Assembly (NCBI RefSeq): GCF_017301735.1
Contig: NZ_CP071090.1
Location: 6,438,001 to 6,502,000, forward strand
Source: Pyxidicoccus parkwaysis
GTDB lineage: Bacteria > Myxococcota > Myxococcia > Myxococcales > Myxococcaceae
Length of the DNA: 64,000 nt
Reading direction: 5' to 3'
A model generated the notes under the pieces. It was not told the DNA's origin and did not search any database. It was given only the letters and a program-made list of their open reading frames with translations. Below, piece by piece: positions 2 to 61,028 of this stretch. Position 1 is the first letter of the stretch. The number at the start of each line of letters is the position of its first letter. Both the position numbers and the translations under genes were made by a program.

Positions 2-1006
2 CAGATTACGCGTGACAAGTGGTACGCGTACGTCGGCGGCAAGACGGCGCTGGTGCAGAACGAGCTCATCCTCGAGGAGGAGACGCTCTACGGCGTCATG
101 GCCGGCGCGGGCTGGGACATCCTGGACACGCTGCGCGTCGAGGCGGGCGGCGGCTACTTCCAGAAGGGCCTGGTGCCCGGCCTGGCGACGCTCGGCGTGG
201 AGGCCCCGGTGAATGCCGCGGGCATCTCCGGCCAGGTCGTCTACCACGTGGGCGTGCCGGTGGGCACGAGCGTGGACTTCCGGCTCTACAAGAACGACCC
301 GGACATCTACCAGCGCTTCTTCGCGCCGGAGCTGTACCCGGGAGGCCTCTCCTACTCCGTATCGCTCGAGGGCAGCTACCTGTCGCAGACGCTGGAGAAG
401 CCGGACGAGTTCGGCGCCACCCAGCCGCAGGGCGCCACCGCCCTGGCCCTGCAGGCGCGCGCCAAGTGGAACTTCCTGCGCCTCAGCCTCCTGGGCCTGT
501 ACCGCAGCCTCTCGTACATCCAGTTCAACGTGCCGGGCTTCCCCCCGTTCCAAGATTTCCCGGACGGCACGAAGCTGAAGCCGGAGATGTTCCTGGCGCT
601 GGGCGCGGACTACCACTTCCCGAAGATGCACTTCACGCCGGGCTTCGTCGTCGGCGTGCAGCAGCCGGCGTCGTTCCGCAGCCCCACCCCGGTGCTGGGC
701 GGCAACAACCCGCCCGAGGGCCTCATCGGCACGCGCACCGTGGTGGTGCGAGACGTGAATCAACTCAGCGTGCTCCCCGAGGTGTGCAGCAAGTCCAACT
801 CGGTCTGCCAGGCGCAGCCCATCTACTCGGCGAAGGCCACCTTCCGCTGGGATTTGTCTGACTCCGTCGCCGCCGTGGGCGAGGTCTACTACACGTACGA
901 CAACAACCGGACCACGTTCCGCGACGACATCACCGGCGTGGCGCAGCCCACGTTCGAGGACCCGCACGCGCTGGGCTTCAACACGCTGCTGCAGGCGCGC
1001 TTCTAA
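2..1006 (+). CDS. C-terminal part of a predicted outer-membrane beta-barrel protein (5' truncated)
   Basis: The frame is open from base 2, so the start lies outside the window; 334 codons remain. The translation has alternating hydrophobic/polar stretches rich in Gly, Tyr and Phe (for example YHFPKMHFTPGFVVGV) and ends in ...LLQARF. A terminal Phe after an alternating strand is the usual recognition signal for outer-membrane barrel assembly. Two Cys lie close together near residue 260 of the visible part, in a loop-like segment. No family name could be given by eye; a porin-like or transport barrel is inferred. It is convergent with the gspE-like gene, and a hairpin lies between the two. Confidence 0.75.
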   Translation, partial: QITRDKWYAYVGGKTALVQNELILEEETLYGVMAGAGWDILDTLRVEAGGGYFQKGLVPGLATLGVEAPVNAAGISGQVVYHVGVPVGTSVDFRLYKNDPDIYQRFFAPELYPGGLSYSVSLEGSYLSQTLEKPDEFGATQPQGATALALQARAKWNFLRLSLLGLYRSLSYIQFNVPGFPPFQDFPDGTKLKPEMFLALGADYHFPKMHFTPGFVVGVQQPASFRSPTPVLGGNNPPEGLIGTRTVVVRDVNQLSVLPEVCSKSNSVCQAQPIYSAKATFRWDLSDSVAAVGEVYYTYDNNRTTFRDDITGVAQPTFEDPHALGFNTLLQARF

Positions 1007-1034
1007 ACAGGCGCCCGTCCTTCTCCTGAAACAC

Positions 1035-1070
1035 CACGGCCCGACTCCCTTCGTGGGGAGCCGGGCCGTG
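1035..1070. terminator. Hairpin between convergent genes, likely bidirectional terminator
   Basis: Arms CACGGCCCGACTCCC and GGGAGCCGGGCCGTG pair over about 15 bp with a single mismatch around a short TTCG-containing loop. It sits 29 bases after the stop of the outer-membrane protein gene and 28 bases beyond the gspE stop. A short T-rich run (TGTTTC) follows only on the leftward reading, so it probably serves the hem-gspE transcript best. Confidence 0.6.
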
Positions 1071-1097
1071 TCGTCTCCGGAGTCTTGTGTTGGCGCC

Positions 1098-2936
1098 TCA
1101 GGCGGACGTCATGCGCACCACCTCTTCGAAGGCGGTGAGGCCCTGGGCCAGCTTGCGCACGGCGGCCTCGCGCAGGGTGCGCATGCCCGAGCGCCGCGCG
1201 GCCTCCACCAGCTTCTCGTAGGGCGCCTCGCGCGAGACGAGGTCCCTCAACTCGCCGCCGCAGGTGACGATTTCGAAGACGCCGGTGCGGCCCACGAAGC
1301 CGGTGCCCCGGCAGCGCACGCAGCCGGCGCCCTTGAGCAGCCGCACACCGCCGGGCAAGAGCGGCAGCGGCGCCTGGAGCGCGAGCAGCTCGTCCGGGGT
1401 GAGCGTCGTCTCCTCCGCGCAGTGGCTGCACACGCGCCGCAGCAGGCGCTGGGCCATGACGCCCAGGAGGCTCTGCGCGAGGAGGAAGGACGGCACGCCC
1501 AAGTCCCGCATGCGCGCCACCGCGCCCAGCGCGTCGTTGGTGTGCAGCGTGGAGAGCACGAGGTGGCCGGTGAGCGCGGATTGAATGGCGTTCTCCGCCG
1601 TCTCCGGGTCTCGAATCTCGCCCACCATGATGACGTCCGGGTCCTGGCGGAGGATGTGGCGCAGCGCCCCGGCGAAGTCGAGCCCGGCCTTGGGCTGCAC
1701 CTGCACCTGATTGAAGGCGTCCCACACCATTTCGATGGGGTCTTCAATGGTGGTGACGTTGACGTCCGGCCCGGCCAGCGCCTTGAGCGCCGAGTACAGC
1801 GTCGTCGTCTTGCCGCTGCCCGTGGGGCCGGTGACGAGGATGAGGCCATGGGGACGGTCAATCCAAGACTCGAAGGAGGCCTTCTCGTCCTGCTCGAAGC
1901 CGAGCTGGGCGATGTCCTGCACCAGCGTCTCCGGGTCGAAGATGCGGATGACCACCTTCTCGCCGAAGGCGGTGGGCAGCGTGGACACGCGCAACTCCAC
2001 CTCGCGGCCCTCGCGCTCCGTCTTGATGCGGCCGTCCTGGGGCTTGCGCTTCTCGGAGATGTCGATGCGCGCGAGCATCTTCACGCGCGACACCATGGGC
2101 GCGTGCACCTGCGCGGGCAGCGTGTAGACGGGGTGCAGCACGCCGTCGATGCGCAGGCGCACGAGGCTGGTGGAGCGCTTGGGCTCCAGGTGGATGTCCG
2201 AGGCGCGGTTGTCGAAGGCGTAGCGCAGGAGGTAGTCCACCGCCTGTACCACCGGCTTGTCGGAGGCCTCGAGCTCCTGCGTGCCGCTGAGCGACACGAG
2301 CTGCTCGAAGTTGGAGACCTGCGCGCCCACGGTGGCGCCGAAGTCGTCGGCGGCGCGCGCCAGCGTCTTGTTGAAGCCGTAGATGTGGGCGATGGACTTG
2401 AGGATGTCTGTCTTGGCGCACAGCACCGGCTCCACCGGCAGCCCGGTGAGGCGGTAGAGGTTCTCGAAGAGCTCGCGGTCGAACGGGTTGGCGACGGCGA
2501 CGAGCAGCCGGCCATTCTCCCCGCGCTCCAGCGGCAGCAGCACGTGCTTCTGCGCGTAGGGCCGGGACACGGTGCGCGTGGCCATGGCCATGTCCAGCTT
2601 CAGCGGGTCGATTTTGCGGTAGGCGGTGCTCGCGGCGCGCGCGGCGGCCTCGGTGACGCGGTCCTCGTCCAGCACGCCGCGACCGTTGGCCATGGGCACC
2701 TGGAAGGCGGCCACCACCTCCACTGGCGACACGTCGTAGCGAGCGGCCTCCTTGCCGTTGCCGCCCTGGGCCTTGAGGACGCGGGCGCGCGCGGCGGGCT
2801 CCCGGGCCAGCACCTCCTGCGCCTGCTGCGGCGACAGCAGCCCCTGGGCCACCAGCGCCTCCAGCACGAAGAGCGTGGTGAAGTCGTCCCGGCTCCTCGA
2901 ATGGATGTTGCTCGCGCTACTGGGTGCCTGTGCCAA
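1098..2936 (-). CDS. gspE: GspE/PilB-family type II secretion ATPase
   Basis: Hexameric cytoplasmic ATPase that powers pseudopilus/pilus assembly in type II secretion-like machines. The N-terminal half is a T2SSE-N domain (around YRKIDPLKLDMAMATR). The C-terminal half has Walker A GPTGSGKTTT near residue 365, an Asp box, Walker B and a CxxC...CxxC zinc motif (CSHC, then CVRC). The frame stays open up to an upstream start at 3008. The TTG at 2936 is preferred because AGGGAAGGAGA lies six bases before it, giving 612 residues, the family's usual size. It is the last gene of the leftward hem run, 107 bp after hemD. No other secretion gene is nearby, so it is an orphan ATPase and its machine cannot be named from this window. 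Confidence 0.9.
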   Translation of the reverse strand: MAQAPSSASNIHSRSRDDFTTLFVLEALVAQGLLSPQQAQEVLAREPAARARVLKAQGGNGKEAARYDVSPVEVVAAFQVPMANGRGVLDEDRVTEAAARAASTAYRKIDPLKLDMAMATRTVSRPYAQKHVLLPLERGENGRLLVAVANPFDRELFENLYRLTGLPVEPVLCAKTDILKSIAHIYGFNKTLARAADDFGATVGAQVSNFEQLVSLSGTQELEASDKPVVQAVDYLLRYAFDNRASDIHLEPKRSTSLVRLRIDGVLHPVYTLPAQVHAPMVSRVKMLARIDISEKRKPQDGRIKTEREGREVELRVSTLPTAFGEKVVIRIFDPETLVQDIAQLGFEQDEKASFESWIDRPHGLILVTGPTGSGKTTTLYSALKALAGPDVNVTTIEDPIEMVWDAFNQVQVQPKAGLDFAGALRHILRQDPDVIMVGEIRDPETAENAIQSALTGHLVLSTLHTNDALGAVARMRDLGVPSFLLAQSLLGVMAQRLLRRVCSHCAEETTLTPDELLALQAPLPLLPGGVRLLKGAGCVRCRGTGFVGRTGVFEIVTCGGELRDLVSREAPYEKLVEAARRSGMRTLREAAVRKLAQGLTAFEEVVRMTSA

Positions 2937-3043
2937 GCCCGTCTCCTTCCCTGCGAGGGAGGAAGCGTAACAGGCACCAGCGCCGGCGCGGAGCCTGTCG
3001 GCACGCATCAGGGCTGGACTGGCAGCCAGCCGGGCAGGCCCCG

Positions 3044-16456: not shown

Positions 16457-17545
16457 TCAGCGCGCGGGGAAGTCCGAGGAGCCGGTATCCGGCGTGGTGG
16501 GCACGGCGATGCTGACGCCGTCGCGGCCCCGGGCCTTGGCCGCGTACATGGCGAAGTCCGCGGCGCGGATGAGGTCCAGCGCGGACAGGGAGTGGTCCGG
16601 GAAGGTGGCCACGCCGACGCTGGCGGTGAGGCGCGCGTCCAGGCCGTGCTCCTGGAGGAAGGAACGCCCGCGGAAGGCCTCGCAGATGCGCTGGCCGATG
16701 AGGGTCGCGCCGTCCAAATCCGTCTCCACCAGCAGCATGGCGAACTCGTCGCCGCCGTAGCGGAAGACGGCGTCCAGGTTCTGCCGGCCCAGGGCGATGA
16801 GCATGTCGCCCACCTCCTTCAGGGCGGCGCTGCCCATCAGGTGGCCGTGGCTGTCGTTGATGCTCTTGAAGTGGTCCAAATCCAAGAAGACGAGCGACAG
16901 CGGGTGGCGGAAGCGCGCGGCGCGCTTCACCTCGTGGTCCAGCAGCGCGCGCAGGTGCCGGGCGTTGTAGCAGCCGGTGTGCTCGTCGGTAATCGTCAGC
17001 TCCTGCACCCGGCGGAAGTTGCGCGCGTTCTCAATGGCAATCGCCGCGTAGTCCGCGATGGCGGTGAGGGTGGTGAGGTCCTCGTTGGTGAAGGGCGGGT
17101 CCGAGGGGCCGTTGACGAGCTCGATGATGCCCAGCACCCGGCCGCGCGCGAGCAGCGGCACGGCGAGGATGGAGCGGGTGTGGAAGGCGGAGGCCTTGTC
17201 GAAGCGGGGGGCGAAGCTCGGGTCTCCGCCCACGTCATGGACGAGGCGGGCGACGCCAGAGGAGAAGACGGCGCCGGCGATGCCCTCGCCCGGGTTGAGC
17301 TGGAGGCCCTTCAAGACTTCGGCGCCGTCCCCCACGGCGATTTCGAAGTAGAGCTTTCCGGAGCGCTCGTCCTGGAGGATGAGGGACCAGTTGCGAGGCA
17401 GCAGCAGGCTGCTGACCTTCTGCATGACGAGCGCGAGCACCTCGCGCAGCTCAAGCGTGGACGTCAGCGCCTTGGCCATCTCATTGAAGGCCGCGAGCTG
17501 CTCCACCGTCCGCTTCATGGCCGACAGGAGGTCTGCGGGCTTCAT
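16457..17545 (-). CDS. GAF-GGDEF diguanylate cyclase
   Basis: 362 residues. A GAF sensor domain spans about 20-165 ([14 protein letters not shown], then [20 protein letters not shown]). A GGDEF domain spans about 180-345 with an intact active site ([11 protein letters not shown]) and the metal/substrate segment [16 protein letters not shown], so it should make c-di-GMP. The residues where the inhibitory RxxD I-site would sit (five before GGDEF) read QNLD; the Arg is missing, so product inhibition at that site is not expected. There is no signal peptide or membrane helix, so the protein is cytosolic. ATG 17545 is chosen; the ribosome-binding site is weak. Confidence 0.92.
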
Positions 17546-17598
17546 CCGTAGAGTCCACTCCGGGGCGCAAGTCTGGTAAGGCCGACCCGAGCCGTAAC

Positions 17599-18198
17599 AT
17601 GCACACGAACGCGGAGCAAACGTTGCTGGTCCTGGCTTCTGCTTCCCCCCGGCGCAGGGAGTTGCTGTCACAACTGGGGCTCTCTTTTACCGTCTCGGCG
17701 GCGGACATCGACGAGACACCCCACCCCGGCGAGGCTCCCGAGGCCTACGTGCTGCGGCTGGCGAGGGAGAAGGCCGGCGCCGTGGCCGGCCGCCACCCCG
17801 GCGCGTGGGTGCTGGCCGCGGACACCACCGTGGTGCTGGGGCCGGAGCTGCTGGGCAAGCCCCGCGACGCGGAGGAGGCCAGGGCCATGCTCGGCCGGCT
17901 CTCCGGGCGCACGCACGAGGTGCACACGGGCGTGGCGCTGGCGGGCCGGCACGCGGAGGCGCTGGTGGTGCGCACCCGCGTCACCTTCCGCAGCCTCACG
18001 CCGGGGGAGATTGCCTGGTACGCGGGCACCGGCGAGCCCCTGGACAAGGCGGGCGCCTACGCCGTGCAGGGCAAGGGCGGCTTCCTGGTGGCGGCGGTGG
18101 ACGGCAGCCCCACCAACGTCATCGGCCTGCCGCTGGGTGAGACGCTGGCGCTGCTGGAGCGCGCCGGGGTGCCGCTGCCGTGGAGGGCCGCGTCGTGA
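17599..18198 (+). CDS. maf: Maf-family nucleotide pyrophosphatase
   Basis: House-cleaning nucleoside-triphosphate pyrophosphatase of 199 residues. The N-terminal [16 protein letters not shown] loop, the catalytic Asp in AADTTVVLG, the [13 protein letters not shown] segment and the GAYAVQGKG ... [12 protein letters not shown]-terminus are all present. It starts 53 bp from the divergent diguanylate cyclase gene and its stop overlaps the next gene by four bases, so it is co-transcribed with yggS. Confidence 0.95.
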
Positions 18199-20248: not shown

Positions 20249-22141
20249 ATGGGCGGGGCAAAGGCGTGGGTTGTGGTCGCGGCGATGACCGCGACTCCGG
20301 TGACTGCGGAGACGAACGCGGCTCCTGTGGCCGTGGCGATGACCTCGGCGCCGGTGGCTGCGGCAACGAACGCGGCGCCGGTGGCTGCGGCAACGATCTC
20401 GGCGCCGGTGGCTGCGGCGACGAACGCGGCTCCGATGGTCACTGCGATGACCTCGGCGCTGGTGGCTGCGGCACCCGCAGTGGTGGGCACCACGGCTTCA
20501 GGGGCACAGGTGGTCTCGCCCCTGGTGAAGGTGCGTCCGGGTGAAGCGCTGCACGGGCGCCGAGACGCCCGGCTCAGCGTGGCCCGAGGCGAGTGCGAGG
20601 CCACGCAGGTGGTGCTGCCCGCGCACGCGGCGCACCCGAAGGTAGAGGCGCTGTCACTGTCCGGGCCCGGCACCGCGCTGAAGGCCTCCGTGTGGCGTGA
20701 AGCCTTCGTGGACGTGAAGACGCCGTCCAACGGAGAGGGCAAACCAGGCCCGTGGCCGGACGCGCTGGTGCCCGTGGAGGCACCGATTCAAGCATCCGAC
20801 GCGAACCTGCCCACCGTCCTCTTCGTGGAGGTGTGCGCGCCGGAGAAGCAGGCCCCGGGCACGTACAAGGGCGAGCTGCGCGTGAAGACGGAAGGCGCCG
20901 CTCCCGCGCCCGTGCCCTTCACGGTGGAGGTGCAGCCCTTCGCGCTGCCGGCGTCGTCCTCGCTGCCCAACAGCTTCGGCGTGTCGCTGTACAGCATTGC
21001 CCGGGGGCATGGCCTGTCACCGGAGTCTCCCGAGGCGCGAGCGCTGCTGCGCGAGTACGGCCGCGCGCTGCTGGAGCACCGGGTGAGCGCGCACGGCATG
21101 AGCATGACGCCGCCTCCGGTGCGCTTCGAGGACGGCAAGGCCGTGGTGGACTGGCGCGCGTACGACGCGGAGATGGGGCCCTTCCTCGACGGAAGCCTGC
21201 TGCCCTCGGGCGCGCGCTTCACCACCGCCGAGGTGCGCGACAGCAAGCAGGCCAGCACGGACGCGGAGAAGGCCGCGTACTACCGCGCCTTCGTCGAGCA
21301 CTTCCGGAAGAAGGGCTGGCCCGCGCAGCTCTTCTTCTACGCCAAGGACGAGCCGAAGCCGGAGGACGTGCCGCTCGTGCAGGCACAGGCGAAGCGCGTG
21401 CGCGCGGCCGGAGGCATTCCGGTGCTCGTCACCAGCCCGCTGGATGACGCGCTGCGCGGCTCGGCGGACATCCTCACGCCCACGCTCAACTGCTTCTACC
21501 CGCGCCCCGGCCCGCAGACGTGCCGCAACGTGTTGACGGCCCGCACGCTGCGAGGCCACCTGCCGAAGAGCGCGAAGGTGTGGTGGTACCAGAGCTGCAA
21601 CTCGCACGGCTGCAACGGCGGCCCGCCCGAGGACGCGGCGGTGGACGCCGCCTACAGCGGCTGGGCTTCCTACATGGTGGACCACCCCGCCCCGCTCAAC
21701 CGCGCCATGGGCGTGCTGGCCTTCTCGTCCGGCGTGGACGGCGAGCTCTATTTCGACACCGTGTTCGCCTACAACACGAAGAAGGACGTGTGGACGGACG
21801 TCTTCGAGTTCGGCGGCAACGGCGACGGCACCCTCTTCTATCCGGGCACGCCGGCCCGCCTGGGGACGTCCAGCCACCAGCCGGTAATCAGTTTGCGTCT
21901 CAAGGAGATCCGCGACGGGCTGGAGGACTACGAGTACCTCCGGCTGCTGACGGAGCTGGGAGATGGCGCCTTCGCGCAGGCGGCCGCGCGGAGGCTGGCC
22001 CGCTCGGGTTGGGACATCACCCGGGATGCGGGAGAATGGGAAGCGGTCCGCCAGGAAGTCACGGCCCGGCTGCGGAAGCTGTGGGCCAGTTCCGAATATG
22101 CGAAGCGCCCGGGCCGTCAGAAGCCCGACAGCACCCCGTAG
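20249..22141 (+). CDS. Secreted DUF4091 protein with a repeat-rich N-terminus
   Basis: 630 residues. Residues 13-75 are seven tandem 9-residue units (TNAAPVAAA-like) that give an Ala-rich leader; a signal peptide may be embedded at the start. The rest resembles carbohydrate-active DUF4091 proteins: an N-terminal beta-sandwich (about 95-235), a barrel-like central part with PAQLFFYAKDEPKPEDVP and a C-terminal DUF4091 domain ending with ISLRLKEIRDGLEDYEYLRLL. DUF4091 is found in glycoside-hydrolase-like proteins. Enzymatic activity is not certain; DE in AKDEP is a candidate acidic pair. Confidence 0.8.
   Translation: MGGAKAWVVVAAMTATPVTAETNAAPVAVAMTSAPVAAATNAAPVAAATISAPVAAATNAAPMVTAMTSALVAAAPAVVGTTASGAQVVSPLVKVRPGEALHGRRDARLSVARGECEATQVVLPAHAAHPKVEALSLSGPGTALKASVWREAFVDVKTPSNGEGKPGPWPDALVPVEAPIQASDANLPTVLFVEVCAPEKQAPGTYKGELRVKTEGAAPAPVPFTVEVQPFALPASSSLPNSFGVSLYSIARGHGLSPESPEARALLREYGRALLEHRVSAHGMSMTPPPVRFEDGKAVVDWRAYDAEMGPFLDGSLLPSGARFTTAEVRDSKQASTDAEKAAYYRAFVEHFRKKGWPAQLFFYAKDEPKPEDVPLVQAQAKRVRAAGGIPVLVTSPLDDALRGSADILTPTLNCFYPRPGPQTCRNVLTARTLRGHLPKSAKVWWYQSCNSHGCNGGPPEDAAVDAAYSGWASYMVDHPAPLNRAMGVLAFSSGVDGELYFDTVFAYNTKKDVWTDVFEFGGNGDGTLFYPGTPARLGTSSHQPVISLRLKEIRDGLEDYEYLRLLTELGDGAFAQAAARRLARSGWDITRDAGEWEAVRQEVTARLRKLWASSEYAKRPGRQKPDSTP
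20285..20473 (+). repeat. Seven tandem 27-bp units inside the DUF4091 gene
   Basis: Unit translations are MTATPVTAE, TNAAPVAVA, MTSAPVAAA, TNAAPVAAA, TISAPVAAA, TNAAPMVTA and MTSALVAAA. The units alternate in a T-N-A/M-T-S pattern and keep the frame. The reading frame is intact, so the array adds 63 residues near the N-terminus. Confidence 0.9.
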
Positions 22142-25695: not shown

Positions 25696-27033
25696 ATGCG
25701 ACGTGCGTTGATGTTGGGAGCGCTGCTGTTGTGGACCACGGGCTGCGGAGAGGAGGCGCCTGGAGCGCCGGCCGAGCCGCCGCGCGCGGGAGGCGCGACG
25801 ACCATCGATGACCGCACGTCGCTGGCCTTCGCCCAGCCCGCGCCCAACCTGACGGCCGAGGACGCGGAGCGGCACCGGGTGGGCGACGCGGCCTTCGAGG
25901 CCGTCTTCGTTCCCGGCCCCGCGGTCATCAACCCGGGGCTGGGGCCCGTCTACAACAACACCTCCTGCAACGGCTGCCACCTGCGCAACGGGCGAGGCAT
26001 GCCGGTGATGGGCACGGGCCCGCAGCGCACGCAGTTGCTCGTGCGGGTGAGCCTGCCGGACGGCACGCCGGACCATCCCAATGGCTCGGTGCCGGTGCCG
26101 GGCTTCGGCTTCCAGGTGCAGGACCAGGCCAACTACGGCGTGCAGCCTGAGGCCTCCGTCGCGCTCGAGTGGGTGGAGACGCAGGGGCGCTACGCGGACG
26201 GCATGGCGTACTCGCTGCGCTCGCCGAAGGTGAGCATCACCCCGAAGAGCGGTGCCACGCTGCCCGAGCGCATGCTGATGTCGCTGCGGCTGCCTCCGCC
26301 GGTGTTCGGGCTGGGGCTGCTGGAGGCGGTGGACGTGTCCACGCTCCAGGCGCTGGCGGACCCGGATGACAGGAACGGGGACGGTGTGTCGGGGCGGCTG
26401 AACGAGGTCTGGGACGTGGCGGCCCAGGCGCTGGCTCCGGGGCGCTTCGGGTGGAAGGCGAACAGCCCGCACCTGAGGCAGCAGTCCGCGGAGGCGTACT
26501 TCAACGACATGGGCATTTCGAATCCCCTCTTCCCGGAGCAGGACGGCACGCACGAAATCACGCGCGACACGCTGGAGGCGGCGGTGTTCTACGCGCAGTC
26601 GCTGGGCGTGCCGGCGCGTACGGCGCTGAGCGACCTGGAGGTAGTGCGCGGCGAGAAGCTCTTCAAGTCGCTGGGCTGCGAGCAGTGCCACCGTGAGACG
26701 CTGGAGACGGGCACGCACACGGTGGCGGAGCTGGTGCACCAGCGCATCCATCCGTACACGGACCTGCTGCTGCACGACATGGGCCCGGAGCTCGCGGACG
26801 GGCGGCCGGACGGCGCGGCCACGGGCGCCGAGTGGCGCACGCCCGCGCTGTGGGGCCTGGGGCTGACGCAGACGGTGCTGCCGTACGCGGCCTTCCTGCA
26901 CGACGGGCGCGCGCGCACGCTGGAGGAGGCCATCCTCTGGCACGGCGGCGAGTCGGCGGCGGCGCGCGAGGGCTTCCGCGGGCTGTCCGCCTCGGACCGT
27001 GCCGCGCTGGTGGAGTTCCTCCACTCGCTGTGA
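25696..27033 (+). CDS. Di-haem cytochrome c lipoprotein (DHOR/thiol oxidoreductase-like)
   Basis: 445 residues. The lipobox is LLLWTTGC, acylated Cys near residue 16. Two CxxCH haem-binding sites are present: CNGCH near residue 93 and CEQCH near residue 330. The fold is that of the di-haem oxidoreductase family annotated as thiol oxidoreductase, often encoded beside imelysin genes. A redox step on iron in the periplasm is the usual inference. AAAGGGGG lies before the ATG. The last 46 bases of the gene are repeated just downstream, within a 79-bp echo. Confidence 0.9.
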   Translation: MRRALMLGALLLWTTGCGEEAPGAPAEPPRAGGATTIDDRTSLAFAQPAPNLTAEDAERHRVGDAAFEAVFVPGPAVINPGLGPVYNNTSCNGCHLRNGRGMPVMGTGPQRTQLLVRVSLPDGTPDHPNGSVPVPGFGFQVQDQANYGVQPEASVALEWVETQGRYADGMAYSLRSPKVSITPKSGATLPERMLMSLRLPPPVFGLGLLEAVDVSTLQALADPDDRNGDGVSGRLNEVWDVAAQALAPGRFGWKANSPHLRQQSAEAYFNDMGISNPLFPEQDGTHEITRDTLEAAVFYAQSLGVPARTALSDLEVVRGEKLFKSLGCEQCHRETLETGTHTVAELVHQRIHPYTDLLLHDMGPELADGRPDGAATGAEWRTPALWGLGLTQTVLPYAAFLHDGRARTLEEAILWHGGESAAAREGFRGLSASDRAALVEFLHSL

Positions 27034-27148
27034 CGGGCTGCGCGGGCGAGGCGGACCGGCCGGAAGCGGCCGCCTCGAACCGTGCCGCGCTGGTGGAGCT
27101 CCTCCGCTCGCTGTGACGTGCCGCGCGGGCGAGGCGGACCGGCCGGAA
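26987..27148 (+). repeat. Tandem duplication of the 3' end of the di-haem gene
   Basis: Bases 26987-27065 recur at 27070-27148 with five differences in 79 positions (offset 83). The first copy covers the last codons, the stop and 32 bases beyond. The second copy re-encodes the C-terminal DRAALVEFLHSL as NRAALVELLRSL plus stop. It has no upstream coding part, so it is a dead stub. Confidence 0.9.
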
Positions 27149-27179
27149 AATTGACGGAGTGCTACCGGCCTGTAGCGTC

Positions 27180-27557
27180 ATGCGCATGCGCTCTCCGGCC
27201 CTCGCCCTCGCCGCCTCCGCGTCACCGCGCCGCGCCGACCCGGTCCGCGTGGCCATGGAGCGCCTGTCTCATTCGCTCCCGGCCCGCGCGGATGCACGCG
27301 TGCTGGTGGAGTTGCTCGAGGACGACGTTCGCGAGGGGTTGGACGCGCTCGGCGACGTGGGGGCCCATTTCAACGGGCTGCTGGACACGCTCCGCACCGA
27401 GGAGCTGTCACCGGTGACGCTGCTGGAGGCTGGCGAGGACCTGCGCGTGCTGCAGCAACTCGATTACCTGCACGACGTCCTCGTCCAGGTCCGCAAGCGC
27501 CTGTCCCAGGCCGCCGCCCTGCAGCGCCAGGGCTACGTGCCCACGCGGCTTCGCTGA
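27180..27557 (+). CDS. Short hypothetical protein
   Basis: 125 residues with no recognised family. The N-terminus is Ala/Ser/Pro/Arg-rich; residues ~35-115 are predicted helical (RVLVELLEDDVREGLDALGDVGAHFNGLL, then LLEAGEDLRVLQQLDYLHDVLVQVRKRL) with strong GC3, which argues for a real gene. ATG 27180 is chosen; a GTG at 27159 and an ATG at 27186 are alternatives, and no ribosome-binding site stands out. The end of the gene is echoed downstream. Confidence 0.6.
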   Translation: MRMRSPALALAASASPRRADPVRVAMERLSHSLPARADARVLVELLEDDVREGLDALGDVGAHFNGLLDTLRTEELSPVTLLEAGEDLRVLQQLDYLHDVLVQVRKRLSQAAALQRQGYVPTRLR

Positions 27558-27646
27558 GCGGGACTCCGCGCCCCTGTGAAGCGCTGTCCCGGGCCCTGCG
27601 CTGCCCTTCAGCGCCAGGGCTACGTGCCCACGCGGCTTCGCTGAGC
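27495..27646 (+). repeat. Duplicated 3' end of the short hypothetical gene
   Basis: A perfect 38-bp core recurs at 27522-27559 and 27609-27646, with weaker similarity extending left to 27495 and 27579. The core includes the final codons QRQGYVPTRLR and the stop. The second copy re-encodes the same peptide end without an upstream gene. Confidence 0.88.
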
Positions 27647-27763
27647 AGCCTCTCCTCTGAGATGGGCGCATGGAGGGCGTGAGCCTTCCGCACCTGCCGC
27701 CGGAATGGGGCTGGGCTCGTGCCACAGCCCTCGCGTCGTCGATGCACCACCGCGCAGCCTTCG

Positions 27764-29644
27764 TCAGATGCTGGGCGGAACGGCCGTACCACCGGGCGAG
27801 GTCGCCGGCGCCGCGGGGGCCGCGGGTGCAGCAGGGGCCGCCGTCGTGGTGCTCGTGCCGGGCGTCACGTTCGCCGGAGCGGGCGTCGCCGGAAGCGCCG
27901 TGGCCGGCGCGGCGGTGAGCGGCGCGGGCGTCCCCAGCAGCGGCCCCGCCTGACCGGCCGTCAGCGGCGCCGGTGAGCCCAGCAGCGCGGACGGCGGCGT
28001 CGCCGTGTCCGAGTTCAGCGGCGGCGGCGTCGCGAGGACACCCGTGCTCGACTGCGCCGTCCCTAGGAAGTTGTCGAACGTGCCGGCCGTCAGTCCCTGC
28101 ACGGAGAAGAAGCCCAGCGAGGCCACGCCGCCCGACGGCGTGGAGAACGCGCTCGTCGCCGGCCCGAAGCCTGACGGCGACCCCGGCGGCGCCGTCCCCG
28201 GCACCACCGCGCCCTCCGCCGCTGACTGCGAGCCCGGCGCGGGAGTGCCCGGCAGGGAGCCCGAGATGTTCACCGGCGGATTCGGCGCCCCCGTGACGGG
28301 GAAGGTTCCGCTCGTCACGTCCGGCGTCACCGGCAGGCCCGCCACCACCGAGCCCGGCAGCGAAGGCCCCACCGCCGAGCCCGGCGGCGTCACCAGCGCT
28401 CCGCCCGCCACGCCCGCCACCGACGGCAGCCCCGCCCCGCCCAGGGCCCCGGAGCCCTCCGCGGGCGCCTCGGTCGTCGCCGTCACCGGCCCGCCCACCA
28501 CGCCCGTGTCCGCGTTCGGCAGCGGCGCGCCCGTCGTCGTCGTCCCACCGCCCGCGACGTTCGACCCCAGCGCCGTCCCCGTCTCCCCGGTGCCGCTGAT
28601 GGTGTTGGCCCCCAGGCCCCCAGCGCCGGTACCTGTCTCTCCGGTGCGGGTGGTGCCGGTGGCCGCCCCCGAGCCTCCAGTGCCCGTCGTCGCCCCGCCC
28701 ACGGTGACGATGCCGCCGCCCTGCGTGGCGACGATGTCCCGCCCGCCGCCCGCCACGCCGACGCTCGTCTGCGCACCGGGCGTCGTCTCCGGCGTGCCCC
28801 CGCGCGCCGTGGCGAGATTCGTCCCCACGGGCACCGTCACGACCGGGGGCGGATTCGTCGGCGCCCCGAACAGCGTCGTGGGCGGCACCGGCGTCAGCTG
28901 CCGGTAGTCCACCGGCGGATTGCCCGTGTTCTCCACCACGGCCTGCGACGGCACCGACGTCCCATCCACGGAGATGGACACGTCCTCGAACACGAACTGC
29001 ACGAAGCCGCGAGGCTCCACCGACGTCGGCAGGTTCCACGCCACCACCACCAGCTCCGTGTCGCCGGGGCGTGCCTGCCGCAGCAGCCGGTGCGTGTCGT
29101 CATCCGCGTACGCGCCCGCGGACAGCGCCGCCGCATGCACGAAGGCCGTGTCGGTGAGGAGCTGCCCGTTGCGCCACACGCTGCCCACGCCCCACATGGC
29201 GACCGCCGCCTGCGTGCGCGTCATCGCCGTCCAGCCCAGCCCGCTGTCGCCGTACAGCGGCACGTCCAGCAGCACGCCGCCGCCAATCATGTGAGGAGGC
29301 GGCCGGGGAAGCGGGCCCGAGGCGGCCTGCCCTCTAACCTGCGGAGGCGGGAAGCCGGGCCTGGTCAGCTCCACCCGGTACTCCACCCCACCCAGCCGGA
29401 AGCTGGCGGACAGCTGCCCCAGGTCGCCGTACGTGGCGCCGGGCAGGGACACGCGGTCCTCCACGGACAGCGAGGCGCTCCCCGAACCACGCTCGGCCAG
29501 GTCGGTGAAAGGCAGTGGGCCGTGGATGAAGAAGCCGTCCGGCCGCTCGGTCCTCGCGCTGGCCTCTCGGCCCTCGAACGTGAACCCGCCTGGCGCCGCA
29601 GCCAGGAAGCCGGACAGTAGAAGCGTGGTGAAGGGTCCCGCCAT
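27764..29644 (-). CDS. Secreted protein with a long Gly/Thr/Pro/Ala-rich C-terminal half
   Basis: 626 residues. A short signal peptide (LLLSGFLAAAPGG) is followed by a folded domain to about residue 245 (GVEYRVELTRPGF, MTRTQAAVAMWGVGSVW, VQFVFEDVSISVDG). From there to the end there is only low-complexity sequence rich in G, T, P, A, V and S (TGTGGSGAATGT, APAAPAAPAAPAT), lacking Lys and nearly lacking charge. AAGGAGG precedes the ATG but lies in a hairpin. It is co-oriented behind the DUF507 gene. A surface or matrix protein is inferred; I do not recognise the family. Confidence 0.75.
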   Translation of the reverse strand: MAGPFTTLLLSGFLAAAPGGFTFEGREASARTERPDGFFIHGPLPFTDLAERGSGSASLSVEDRVSLPGATYGDLGQLSASFRLGGVEYRVELTRPGFPPPQVRGQAASGPLPRPPPHMIGGGVLLDVPLYGDSGLGWTAMTRTQAAVAMWGVGSVWRNGQLLTDTAFVHAAALSAGAYADDDTHRLLRQARPGDTELVVVAWNLPTSVEPRGFVQFVFEDVSISVDGTSVPSQAVVENTGNPPVDYRQLTPVPPTTLFGAPTNPPPVVTVPVGTNLATARGGTPETTPGAQTSVGVAGGGRDIVATQGGGIVTVGGATTGTGGSGAATGTTRTGETGTGAGGLGANTISGTGETGTALGSNVAGGGTTTTGAPLPNADTGVVGGPVTATTEAPAEGSGALGGAGLPSVAGVAGGALVTPPGSAVGPSLPGSVVAGLPVTPDVTSGTFPVTGAPNPPVNISGSLPGTPAPGSQSAAEGAVVPGTAPPGSPSGFGPATSAFSTPSGGVASLGFFSVQGLTAGTFDNFLGTAQSSTGVLATPPPLNSDTATPPSALLGSPAPLTAGQAGPLLGTPAPLTAAPATALPATPAPANVTPGTSTTTAAPAAPAAPAAPATSPGGTAVPPSI

Positions 29645-48681: not shown

Positions 48682-50125
<1,444 letters not shown>

Positions 50126-60020: not shown

Positions 60021-61028
60021 ATGCACGGACTGAACGTCCTCGGAGTCCTCACCGCCGTCCTGCTCACGGTGGCGCCTCCTGTTTCGCGGGCGGCCGCTCC
60101 TCGGCGTGAGCGGCTGTCACTGCCCTCGGGATTCATGCATCCCAATGGCATCACTCACGCGGAGGACGGGACGCTCTTCGTCGGCTCGGTGCCGAGCGGG
60201 CGCATCCTCCGCCGGGCTCAGGGCGGCGACTGGACGGAACTGTTCCCCGGCTCAGCGGACGTCTTCGCCGTGACGAGCTTGCGGCTCGATGCACCGCGAG
60301 GCCTGCTGTGGGGCACGTCTCCGGACGTCATGGGCTTGCTGCGCCCGGATGGCACCCTGGGGAAGCGGACACCCCGACTCTTCGCGGTGGATGCGCGCAC
60401 GGGCGAAGTGCGACGCATCGTCCCCATTCCGGAGGGAGGCCTGGGCAATGACATCACTCTGGCCCCTGATGGCGGTCTGTATGTGACGGACAGCACCCGG
60501 GCCTCCGTCCTCTACCTGCGGCCCGGAGGTGAGCGGCTGGAGACATATGTTGCCGACGCGCGCTTCGCGTCGAAGGAGGCGGGGCTGTCGGGCATCGGCC
60601 CCGCGGGCATCGCGCTGGCGCCGGATGGGAAGACGCTGGCCATCAACACGTTCGGGCCCGGCCGGCTCTTCCTCGTGCGTCCGGGTGAAGCGGGAGCGAC
60701 TCCCACCGTGAGCGAGGTGGCGTTGCCGCGACGCCTGGAGAACCCGGATGGAATGCGCTTCGCGCCGGATGGACGGTTGCTCGTACTGGAGGGCGCGGCG
60801 AAGAGCGGCGATGGGCGCGTGGTGCGCATCGACGTGCTCGGCAGTGCGTCCGGGCCGAAGCGCATCGAGGTGCTGGCCTCCGGCATGGAGTCCCCCGTCA
60901 ACCTCACGGTGGAAGCGAATGGACGCATCTGGGTCACCGAGGCGCGGCTGCGCAACCAACTGCTGAAGGGCACGGCGGCGAAGGTGCCGGATGCGTTCTG
61001 GGTGACGAAGCTGTCTCCCACGAAATGA
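60021..61028 (+). CDS. Secreted SMP-30/gluconolactonase-like beta-propeller
   Basis: 335 residues with a signal peptide (VLTAVLLTVAPPVSRAAA). Blades of an SMP-30/NHL-type propeller follow: HPNGITHAEDGTLFVGSVPSGRI, NDITLAPDGGLYVTDS, GPAGIALAPDGKTLAINT, NPDGMRFAPDGRLLVLEG and SPVNLTVEANGRIWVTEA, each with the typical DG turn. A lactonase or lipid-binding role is possible but the active-site metal ligands cannot be assigned by eye. ATG 60021 has GGTGAG before it; a GTG at 60012 overlaps the SDR stop. Confidence 0.85.
   Translation: MHGLNVLGVLTAVLLTVAPPVSRAAAPRRERLSLPSGFMHPNGITHAEDGTLFVGSVPSGRILRRAQGGDWTELFPGSADVFAVTSLRLDAPRGLLWGTSPDVMGLLRPDGTLGKRTPRLFAVDARTGEVRRIVPIPEGGLGNDITLAPDGGLYVTDSTRASVLYLRPGGERLETYVADARFASKEAGLSGIGPAGIALAPDGKTLAINTFGPGRLFLVRPGEAGATPTVSEVALPRRLENPDGMRFAPDGRLLVLEGAAKSGDGRVVRIDVLGSASGPKRIEVLASGMESPVNLTVEANGRIWVTEARLRNQLLKGTAAKVPDAFWVTKLSPTK

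Follow-up and report, generated by a model that had tools for sequence, protein, structure and literature searches.

A short tandem duplication across the 3' end of a di-haem oxidoreductase gene, and many unrelated ones in the intergenic spacers of a Pyxidicoccus parkwaysis genome

The 3' end of a di-haem oxidoreductase (DHOR) gene of Pyxidicoccus parkwaysis is followed by an adjacent second copy of itself, and we consider it likely that this echo is a newborn minisatellite of two copies, that is, the product of a one-step, homology-poor tandem duplication that was retained where it broke no gene. The sequence is single-copy in relatives, and duplications of the same kind, with units unrelated to each other, recur across the genome, touch 3' far more often than 5' gene ends and accompany a one-sided growth of intergenic spacers relative to the congener G068. 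The window analysed is a stretch of 64,000 nucleotides from this genome (hereafter G000), a single contig of 13.2 Mb, and the genus group comprised 27 genomes; coordinates of seven digits refer to G000.

The DHOR gene occupies 25696-27033 on the + strand in the list of open reading frames (Pfam PF06537, E 6e-103), is preceded by an imelysin-type gene (PF09375 in the Pfam search) and has its stop codon at 27031-27033. The first copy of the 83-bp unit (26987-27069, +) consists of 47 nt from the end of the gene, the 32 nt that follow the stop and a 4-nt filler, GCGG (27066-27069), which separates the two copies; the second copy, i.e., the echo (27070-27148, +), is 94% identical and its end abuts a conserved AATTGACGG block. 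Direct comparison of 26987-27065 with 27070-27148 finds 74 of 79 positions identical at an offset of 83, with three of the five differences in the coding part, and TRF reports 2.0 copies of period 83 with 93% matches over 26987-27148. The echo of 79 bases at this gene end, as originally predicted, is therefore confirmed, as is its re-encoding of the protein's C-terminus, given that the copy spans the coding nucleotides just mentioned. In minisatellites, or short tandem duplications, copies of a unit of about 10-100 bp stand next to each other head to tail. The 83-bp unit has this form, and it copies a local sequence that is single in relatives. An own-genome search with 26700-27700 hit the DHOR coding part at other places (66-78% over more than 100 bp), presumably in paralogues, and gave just two further matches, 26 and about 45 bp long; neither this search nor the relatives' loci revealed any more of the DHOR gene body in the second copy.

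Compared across the Myxococcaceae, the interval is single-copy in the nearest relatives, with much shorter spacers, as had been proposed for comparison. Specifically, the spacer before the downstream gene, which encodes 125 aa, is 146 bp long in G000 vs. 59 bp in G068 and G054, and among the 26 genus genomes with the locus (G000 included, the G070 locus excluded) only G000 has a repeat in this spacer. The DHOR end was recognised upstream in 7 of the 25 other congeners (G068, G054, G079, G073, G060, G077 and G055), and the remaining ones may have a different upstream gene. A DHOR protein search gave 80 loci, mostly from other phyla or families, and none of the 12 named Myxococcaceae loci that were compared has a repeat after the DHOR stop; the closest protein relative is that of Pyxidicoccus caerfyrddinensis (88%), in a search from which records very near the window's genome were possibly excluded. 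When the copy differences were polarised by eye against four relatives, the echo was found to be changed at 27078 and 27099 and the gene copy at 27023, which covers three of the five differences, the other two, after the stop, being assignable to neither copy. The two copies are 94% identical vs. 88% for the DHOR flank between G000 and G068, which points to a duplication most likely younger than the split of these two genomes.

The AATTGACGG block starts exactly where the echo ends, and therefore both flanking genes are left whole. The ATG of the 125-aa gene is immediately preceded by TTGACG-16-TAGCGT (27151-27178, +), which we take to be a promoter-like block; it is undamaged by the duplication, and its position suggests that the gene has a short or absent leader. 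The block is also nearly unchanged in the relatives compared. The 125-aa gene itself (27180-27557, +) has no Pfam match, and a relative of it is present in 90 of the 96 family genomes searched (its own included). The original prediction that its 3' end is echoed as well holds, with a period of about 87: copy 1 (27495-27559, +) ends 2 nt past the stop and copy 2 (27579-27646, +) matches it at 88% with gaps, or at 96% over an ungapped core of 48 nt (27512-27559 / 27599-27646, offset 87). The spacer in which this second duplication lies, before the convergent neighbour gene (27764-29644, -), is 206 bp here vs. 35 bp in G068 and G054. Some tandem repeat is found in this spacer in 6 of 26 genomes, with differing periods (G000 87, G079 46, G066 72, G074 27, G059 128, G064 97), and the spacer has thus been struck in several species. 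The start of the G066 repeat precedes the end of the 125-aa gene's stop codon by 19 nt, and this repeat is an independent 3' echo.

A third duplication in the window lies at the 3' end of purA (adenylosuccinate synthetase; 48803-50113, -; PF00709, E 1.3e-184), where a 65-bp unit is repeated in tandem (48682-48812, -; TRF period 65) and the spacer is 197 bp vs. 132 bp in G068 (start-corrected lengths). The 3'-end duplication predicted for this gene is thus real, while the predicted re-encoding of the C-terminus is weak, since the duplication takes in no more of purA than its stop and final few bases; in the census below the case is counted as "within spacer", the scored part being a 27-nt exact core and the full unit reaching the stop. 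Each copy carries an inverted repeat with 9-nt arms, GCGTGGGTGTCACCCACGC (48682-48700 and 48747-48765), and the pair is perhaps a doubled terminator stem. The purA stems would be in line with repeats being retained for a function, e.g., as duplicated terminators or RNA stability elements. However, the doubled DHOR spacer, folded as RNA, does no better than shuffled versions of it (z -0.32), the echoes are absent in relatives and the repeats of the following spacer differ between species, which makes retention for function highly improbable.

To place these cases in a wider frame, spacer-touching tandem duplications were counted in 1.6 Mb of G000 (400 kb round the window plus 60 spread 20-kb stretches), 0.8 Mb of G068 and 0.4 Mb of G060. 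The gene models came from a simple caller based on codon usage and seeded with five open reading frames of the window, gene starts being approximate, and repeats were counted if they had a period of 25-300, a score of 24 or more (match +1, mismatch -2) and at least 10% of their span in non-coding sequence; fully coding repeats (69 in G000, 23 in G068 and 9 in G060) were excluded, as was a single "coding edge" case in each of G000 and G068. The G000 sample holds 32 such duplications, with periods of 26-107, of which 13 touch only a 3' end, one only a 5' end, two both and 16 lie within spacers. Dinucleotide shuffling of 1059 G000 spacers with 90-nt flanks gave no repeat of score 24 or more in three rounds (the DHOR echo scores 64), i.e., the genome-wide excess over shuffled controls that the original prediction called for is present. 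Relatives without echoes at other genes would, according to the same prediction, make the case a coincidence, and the outcome here is mixed: the five duplications of G068 all lie within spacers (a single large spacer accounts for three), whereas two of the four in G060 run across a 3' end, the other two lying within spacers. Per Mb, these counts amount to 20.0 in G000, 6.25 in G068 and 10 in G060; the difference between G000 and G068 is significant for all cases (p 0.009) and for 3'-touching ones (p 0.004), that between G000 and G060 is not.

Some of the spacer cases (eight in G000, four in G068 and one in G060) combine a period divisible by 3 with an open frame of 100 codons or more and may be missed coding repeats; leaving them out gives counts of 24, 1 and 3, respectively, although one of the eight in G000, at 6570094, is nevertheless a clear spacer expansion. 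Fully coding tandem repeats, many of which may be ordinary protein repeats, number 8 in G000 vs. 13 in G068 in the orthologous blocks, 61 in 1.2 Mb vs. 10 in 0.4 Mb in the spread samples (p 0.04) and 69 vs. 23 overall (p 0.10). On these figures, G000 may be a general mutator that duplicates more throughout, or may only retain more duplications in its spacers. Two duplications (L120, 19614-19727, and L170, 18726-18876) span the stop/start pair of neighbouring genes; in the L120 case the two genes share 4 nt in G068 but stand one unit apart in G000, and their translation may be uncoupled as a result.

None of the 32 units, searched against the sampled 1.6 Mb, shares sequence with the unit of a different locus, the sole off-locus unit match at E 1e-4 (in this 1.6 Mb of the 13.2-Mb genome) adjoining its own array, and the 31 expanded spacers have no copy elsewhere within the sample. 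Because the units of different loci are unrelated, each is a copy from its own neighbourhood, and a dispersed or mobile (MIRU-like) repeat is rejected within the 1.6 Mb. The first history offered in the original prediction was a tandem duplication of the whole gene that was later deleted down to a 3' stub. Such a history could leave the same final structure, provided that the deletion started precisely at the joint of the duplication, and larger gene-fragment copies do occur, if rarely: in L119, 16582-16985 and about 17394-17797 match over 404 nt at a period of 812, one stretch being non-coding and the other mostly coding, which is possibly a copy of the kind proposed. Yet an equally exact deletion would be needed at every locus, the units are 26-107 bp long at unrelated genes and half of them touch no gene end, a scan of the 400-kb block for periods of 301-3000 found only two repeats with non-coding parts, and the nearest relatives are single-copy with short spacers. 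We therefore reject the deleted gene copy as very unlikely here, while the second history offered, local slippage, fits the single copy in relatives and the short, unrelated units.

The position of the duplications relative to genes is asymmetric. If units of the observed lengths are placed at random with genes kept whole, 17.2 of the 32 would be expected within spacers, 6.0 at 3' ends, 7.2 at 5' ends and about 1.7 across two ends; the observed ratio of 3' to 5' cases is 13:1 (p 0.0018), and a 3' end is touched in 15 of the 32 vs. about 7.6 expected under this gene-preserving placement. The spacer type could be assigned in 31 cases (the remaining one lies at the end of a stretch): codirectional spacers hold 8 duplications at 3' ends, 1 at a 5' end, 2 at both and 10 within (expected 4.8, 4.8, 1.3 and 10.2), convergent spacers 5 at 3' ends and 2 within (expected 2.9 at 3' ends plus 0.9 across both, and 3.2 within), and divergent spacers 3 within (expected 2.1, and 0.9 at 5' ends). 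Gene starts are avoided by the duplications, and the process is not specific to 3' ends, with 16 of the 32 touching no gene end at all. Alternatively, the process might be aimed at 3' ends, e.g., through replication conflicts at transcription end points, the ends being attracted rather than merely spared. The excess of 3' contacts would agree with this, also when the 5' case is left out (15 of 31, p 0.03) and when the eight possibly coding cases are left out as well (15 of 23, p 0.0007), and some attraction to gene ends is possible. However, promoter constraint upstream of gene starts would tilt the counts in the same way, convergent spacers, which have no gene starts, show 3' contacts in 5 of 7 cases vs. 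3.8 expected, and the overlap with coding sequence varies from 5 to 62 nt with no fixed position; we consider targeting of 3' ends unlikely on balance. Survival of only those duplications that preserve genes, coupled to the avoidance of gene starts, would produce a preference such as the 13:1 observed, and we infer purifying selection to be its cause.

The spacers of G000 have grown relative to those of G068. Of the 261 orthologous spacers compared in the 400-kb block, those that differ by at least 30 bp comprise 32 in which G000 is the longer and 8 in which it is the shorter; the corresponding counts are 24 and 5 for at least 50 bp (sign test p 0.0005) and 14 and 1 for at least 100 bp. Of the 24 G000 spacers in the 50-bp class, half contain a repeat scoring at least 24 (one of them has repeats in G068 too), the other 12 show no recognisable repeat, and none of the five that are longer in G068 has a repeat of that score; that is, tandem duplication accounts for part, not all, of the growth. 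The block contains 13 spacer-touching duplications. In all 11 of those that fall in aligned paired spacers, the G000 spacer is the longer one; another belongs to the large spacer in which both genomes have repeats, and the last is unpaired at the block edge, where G068 aligns through without a large gap. Genus-wide flank searches, with gaps derived by hand from coordinates, were carried out for five expansions. At 6392030, 204-246 bp lie between the flanks here vs. at most 84 bp in all 24 others with both flanks; at 6526952 the distance exceeds that of all 25 others, the nearest (G059) being 39 bp shorter; at 6570049 the distance is 173-188 bp less in each of the 26 others; at 6588986 it is 132-160 bp less in the four congeners whose two flanks are adjacent; and 6361517 is mixed, with longer gaps in 5 of 26 congeners (G057, G061, G067, G069 and G072). 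The congeners thus show four of the five expansions to be gains in the G000 lineage. Spacers that are much longer than in G068 and free of recognisable repeats include those at 61028 (G000 6499028; +83), 6284335 (+385), 6404818 (+120) and 6612542 (+166). An imperfect 27/54-bp repeat array (20273-20472) also stands at the very start of the open reading frame at 20249-22141; after start correction, this frame lies 174 bp farther from the upstream gene than in G068, and the repeated N-terminus may be a lineage-specific expansion, either in frame or before the start.

The cleanest junctions show a 2-nt overlap (periods 56 and 62) or a filler of 1-5 nt (periods 36, 83 and 78), which makes recombination between pre-existing direct repeats improbable. 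At other junctions there are 11-45 nt without a match, or the array is extended; later indels and secondary slippage would account for this. In 8 of the 32 cases the copies, matched without gaps, stay 28-45 nt apart, which a clean tandem duplication without later indels does not predict; for the 125-aa gene and purA most of this distance disappears once gaps are allowed. Inverted repeats at the unit ends were rejected as a trigger, the mean run being 4.4 vs. 4.2 in random placements, with a run of 6 or more in 6 of the 32 units vs. 10% of random placements (no clear signal).

Short filler and little homology at clean junctions are also what would be expected if Ku/LigD fill-in and end joining at staggered breaks had copied the stretch between two nicks, and Ku is present in G000 and in 17 of the 27 genus genomes overall. 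However, G060 has no Ku match yet carries two 3'-end duplications in 0.4 Mb, G066 has none either yet carries one such duplication at the 125-aa gene, and G068 has Ku but no 3'-end duplication in 0.8 Mb. Ku-dependent end joining is thus rejected as a necessary mechanism, and we regard end joining as the source of the echo as quite unlikely. The genomes without a Ku match are G060, G063, G065, G066 and G074-G078 (all 9.0-9.5 Mb) as well as G056, a pattern that has the appearance of a lineage loss within the genus.

Hence, we favor a one-step tandem duplication, with template slippage during replication, the remaining ordinary candidate, probably being the molecular step. Under this hypothesis, the 83-bp stretch straddling the DHOR stop would have been copied once, in a single step, in the G000 lineage, the nascent strand slipping back to an upstream point with next to no homology and, in some cases, adding a few filler bases. 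The DHOR stop would have been kept in the first copy and the conserved block upstream of the next gene after the second, and the two copies would then have diverged. The same process would have affected many G000 spacers, each time with an unrelated unit of 26-107 bp, and its products would persist within spacers or across 3' ends and mostly be lost across gene starts.

Short tandem duplications are known as the seeds of minisatellites, and several described systems resemble the present one in part. As far as the consulted excerpts of these reports go, the VNTR3239 (ETR-F) repeat makes the rnc-fpg spacer 279-358 bp long in the M. tuberculosis complex compared with a few bp in other mycobacteria (PMC2734929), and G000 shares with such minisatellite or VNTR loci the tandem repeats in spacers and the lineage-restricted expansion, but differs in having mostly few, diverged copies of unrelated units at many loci. 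MIRUs are units of 40-100 bp at gene boundaries (PMC12548453, PMC2734929), and the G000 units are of similar length and location; MIRUs are described as scattered, apparently mobile and inserted at start codons (PMC12548453), whereas the G000 units are local copies, unrelated between loci, that avoid gene starts. The tandem repeats of Borgs have a local, independent origin and are rarely conserved in near relatives (PMC9879509), as appears to be the case for the G000 duplications, although the Borg arrays are perfect, A-enriched and of many copies in the examples given, while those of G000 are imperfect, mostly of low copy number and set in a genome of 70% G+C. The literature search, in the excerpts it covered, found no report of 3'-end echoes in Myxococcaceae.

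The notable part is the one-sided growth of spacers together with the 13:1 bias. It is tempting to speculate, with low confidence, that the G000 lineage, compared with G068, is in a burst of short tandem duplications seeded preferentially at 3' ends by a distinct process (e.g., replication-transcription conflict at transcript ends), its spacers growing by time and again capturing and then eroding coding fragments; if so, neighbouring coding sequence would be a local source of new intergenic DNA. For annotation, short "C-terminal" open reading frames past stop codons may be echoes rather than genes. Finally, the gain of spacer DNA in bacteria is seldom caught in the act, and the young duplications of G000 lend themselves to dating, to polarisation with related species as the reference and to a comparison of gene starts with gene ends, which allows the contributions of mutation and selection to spacer growth to be told apart.
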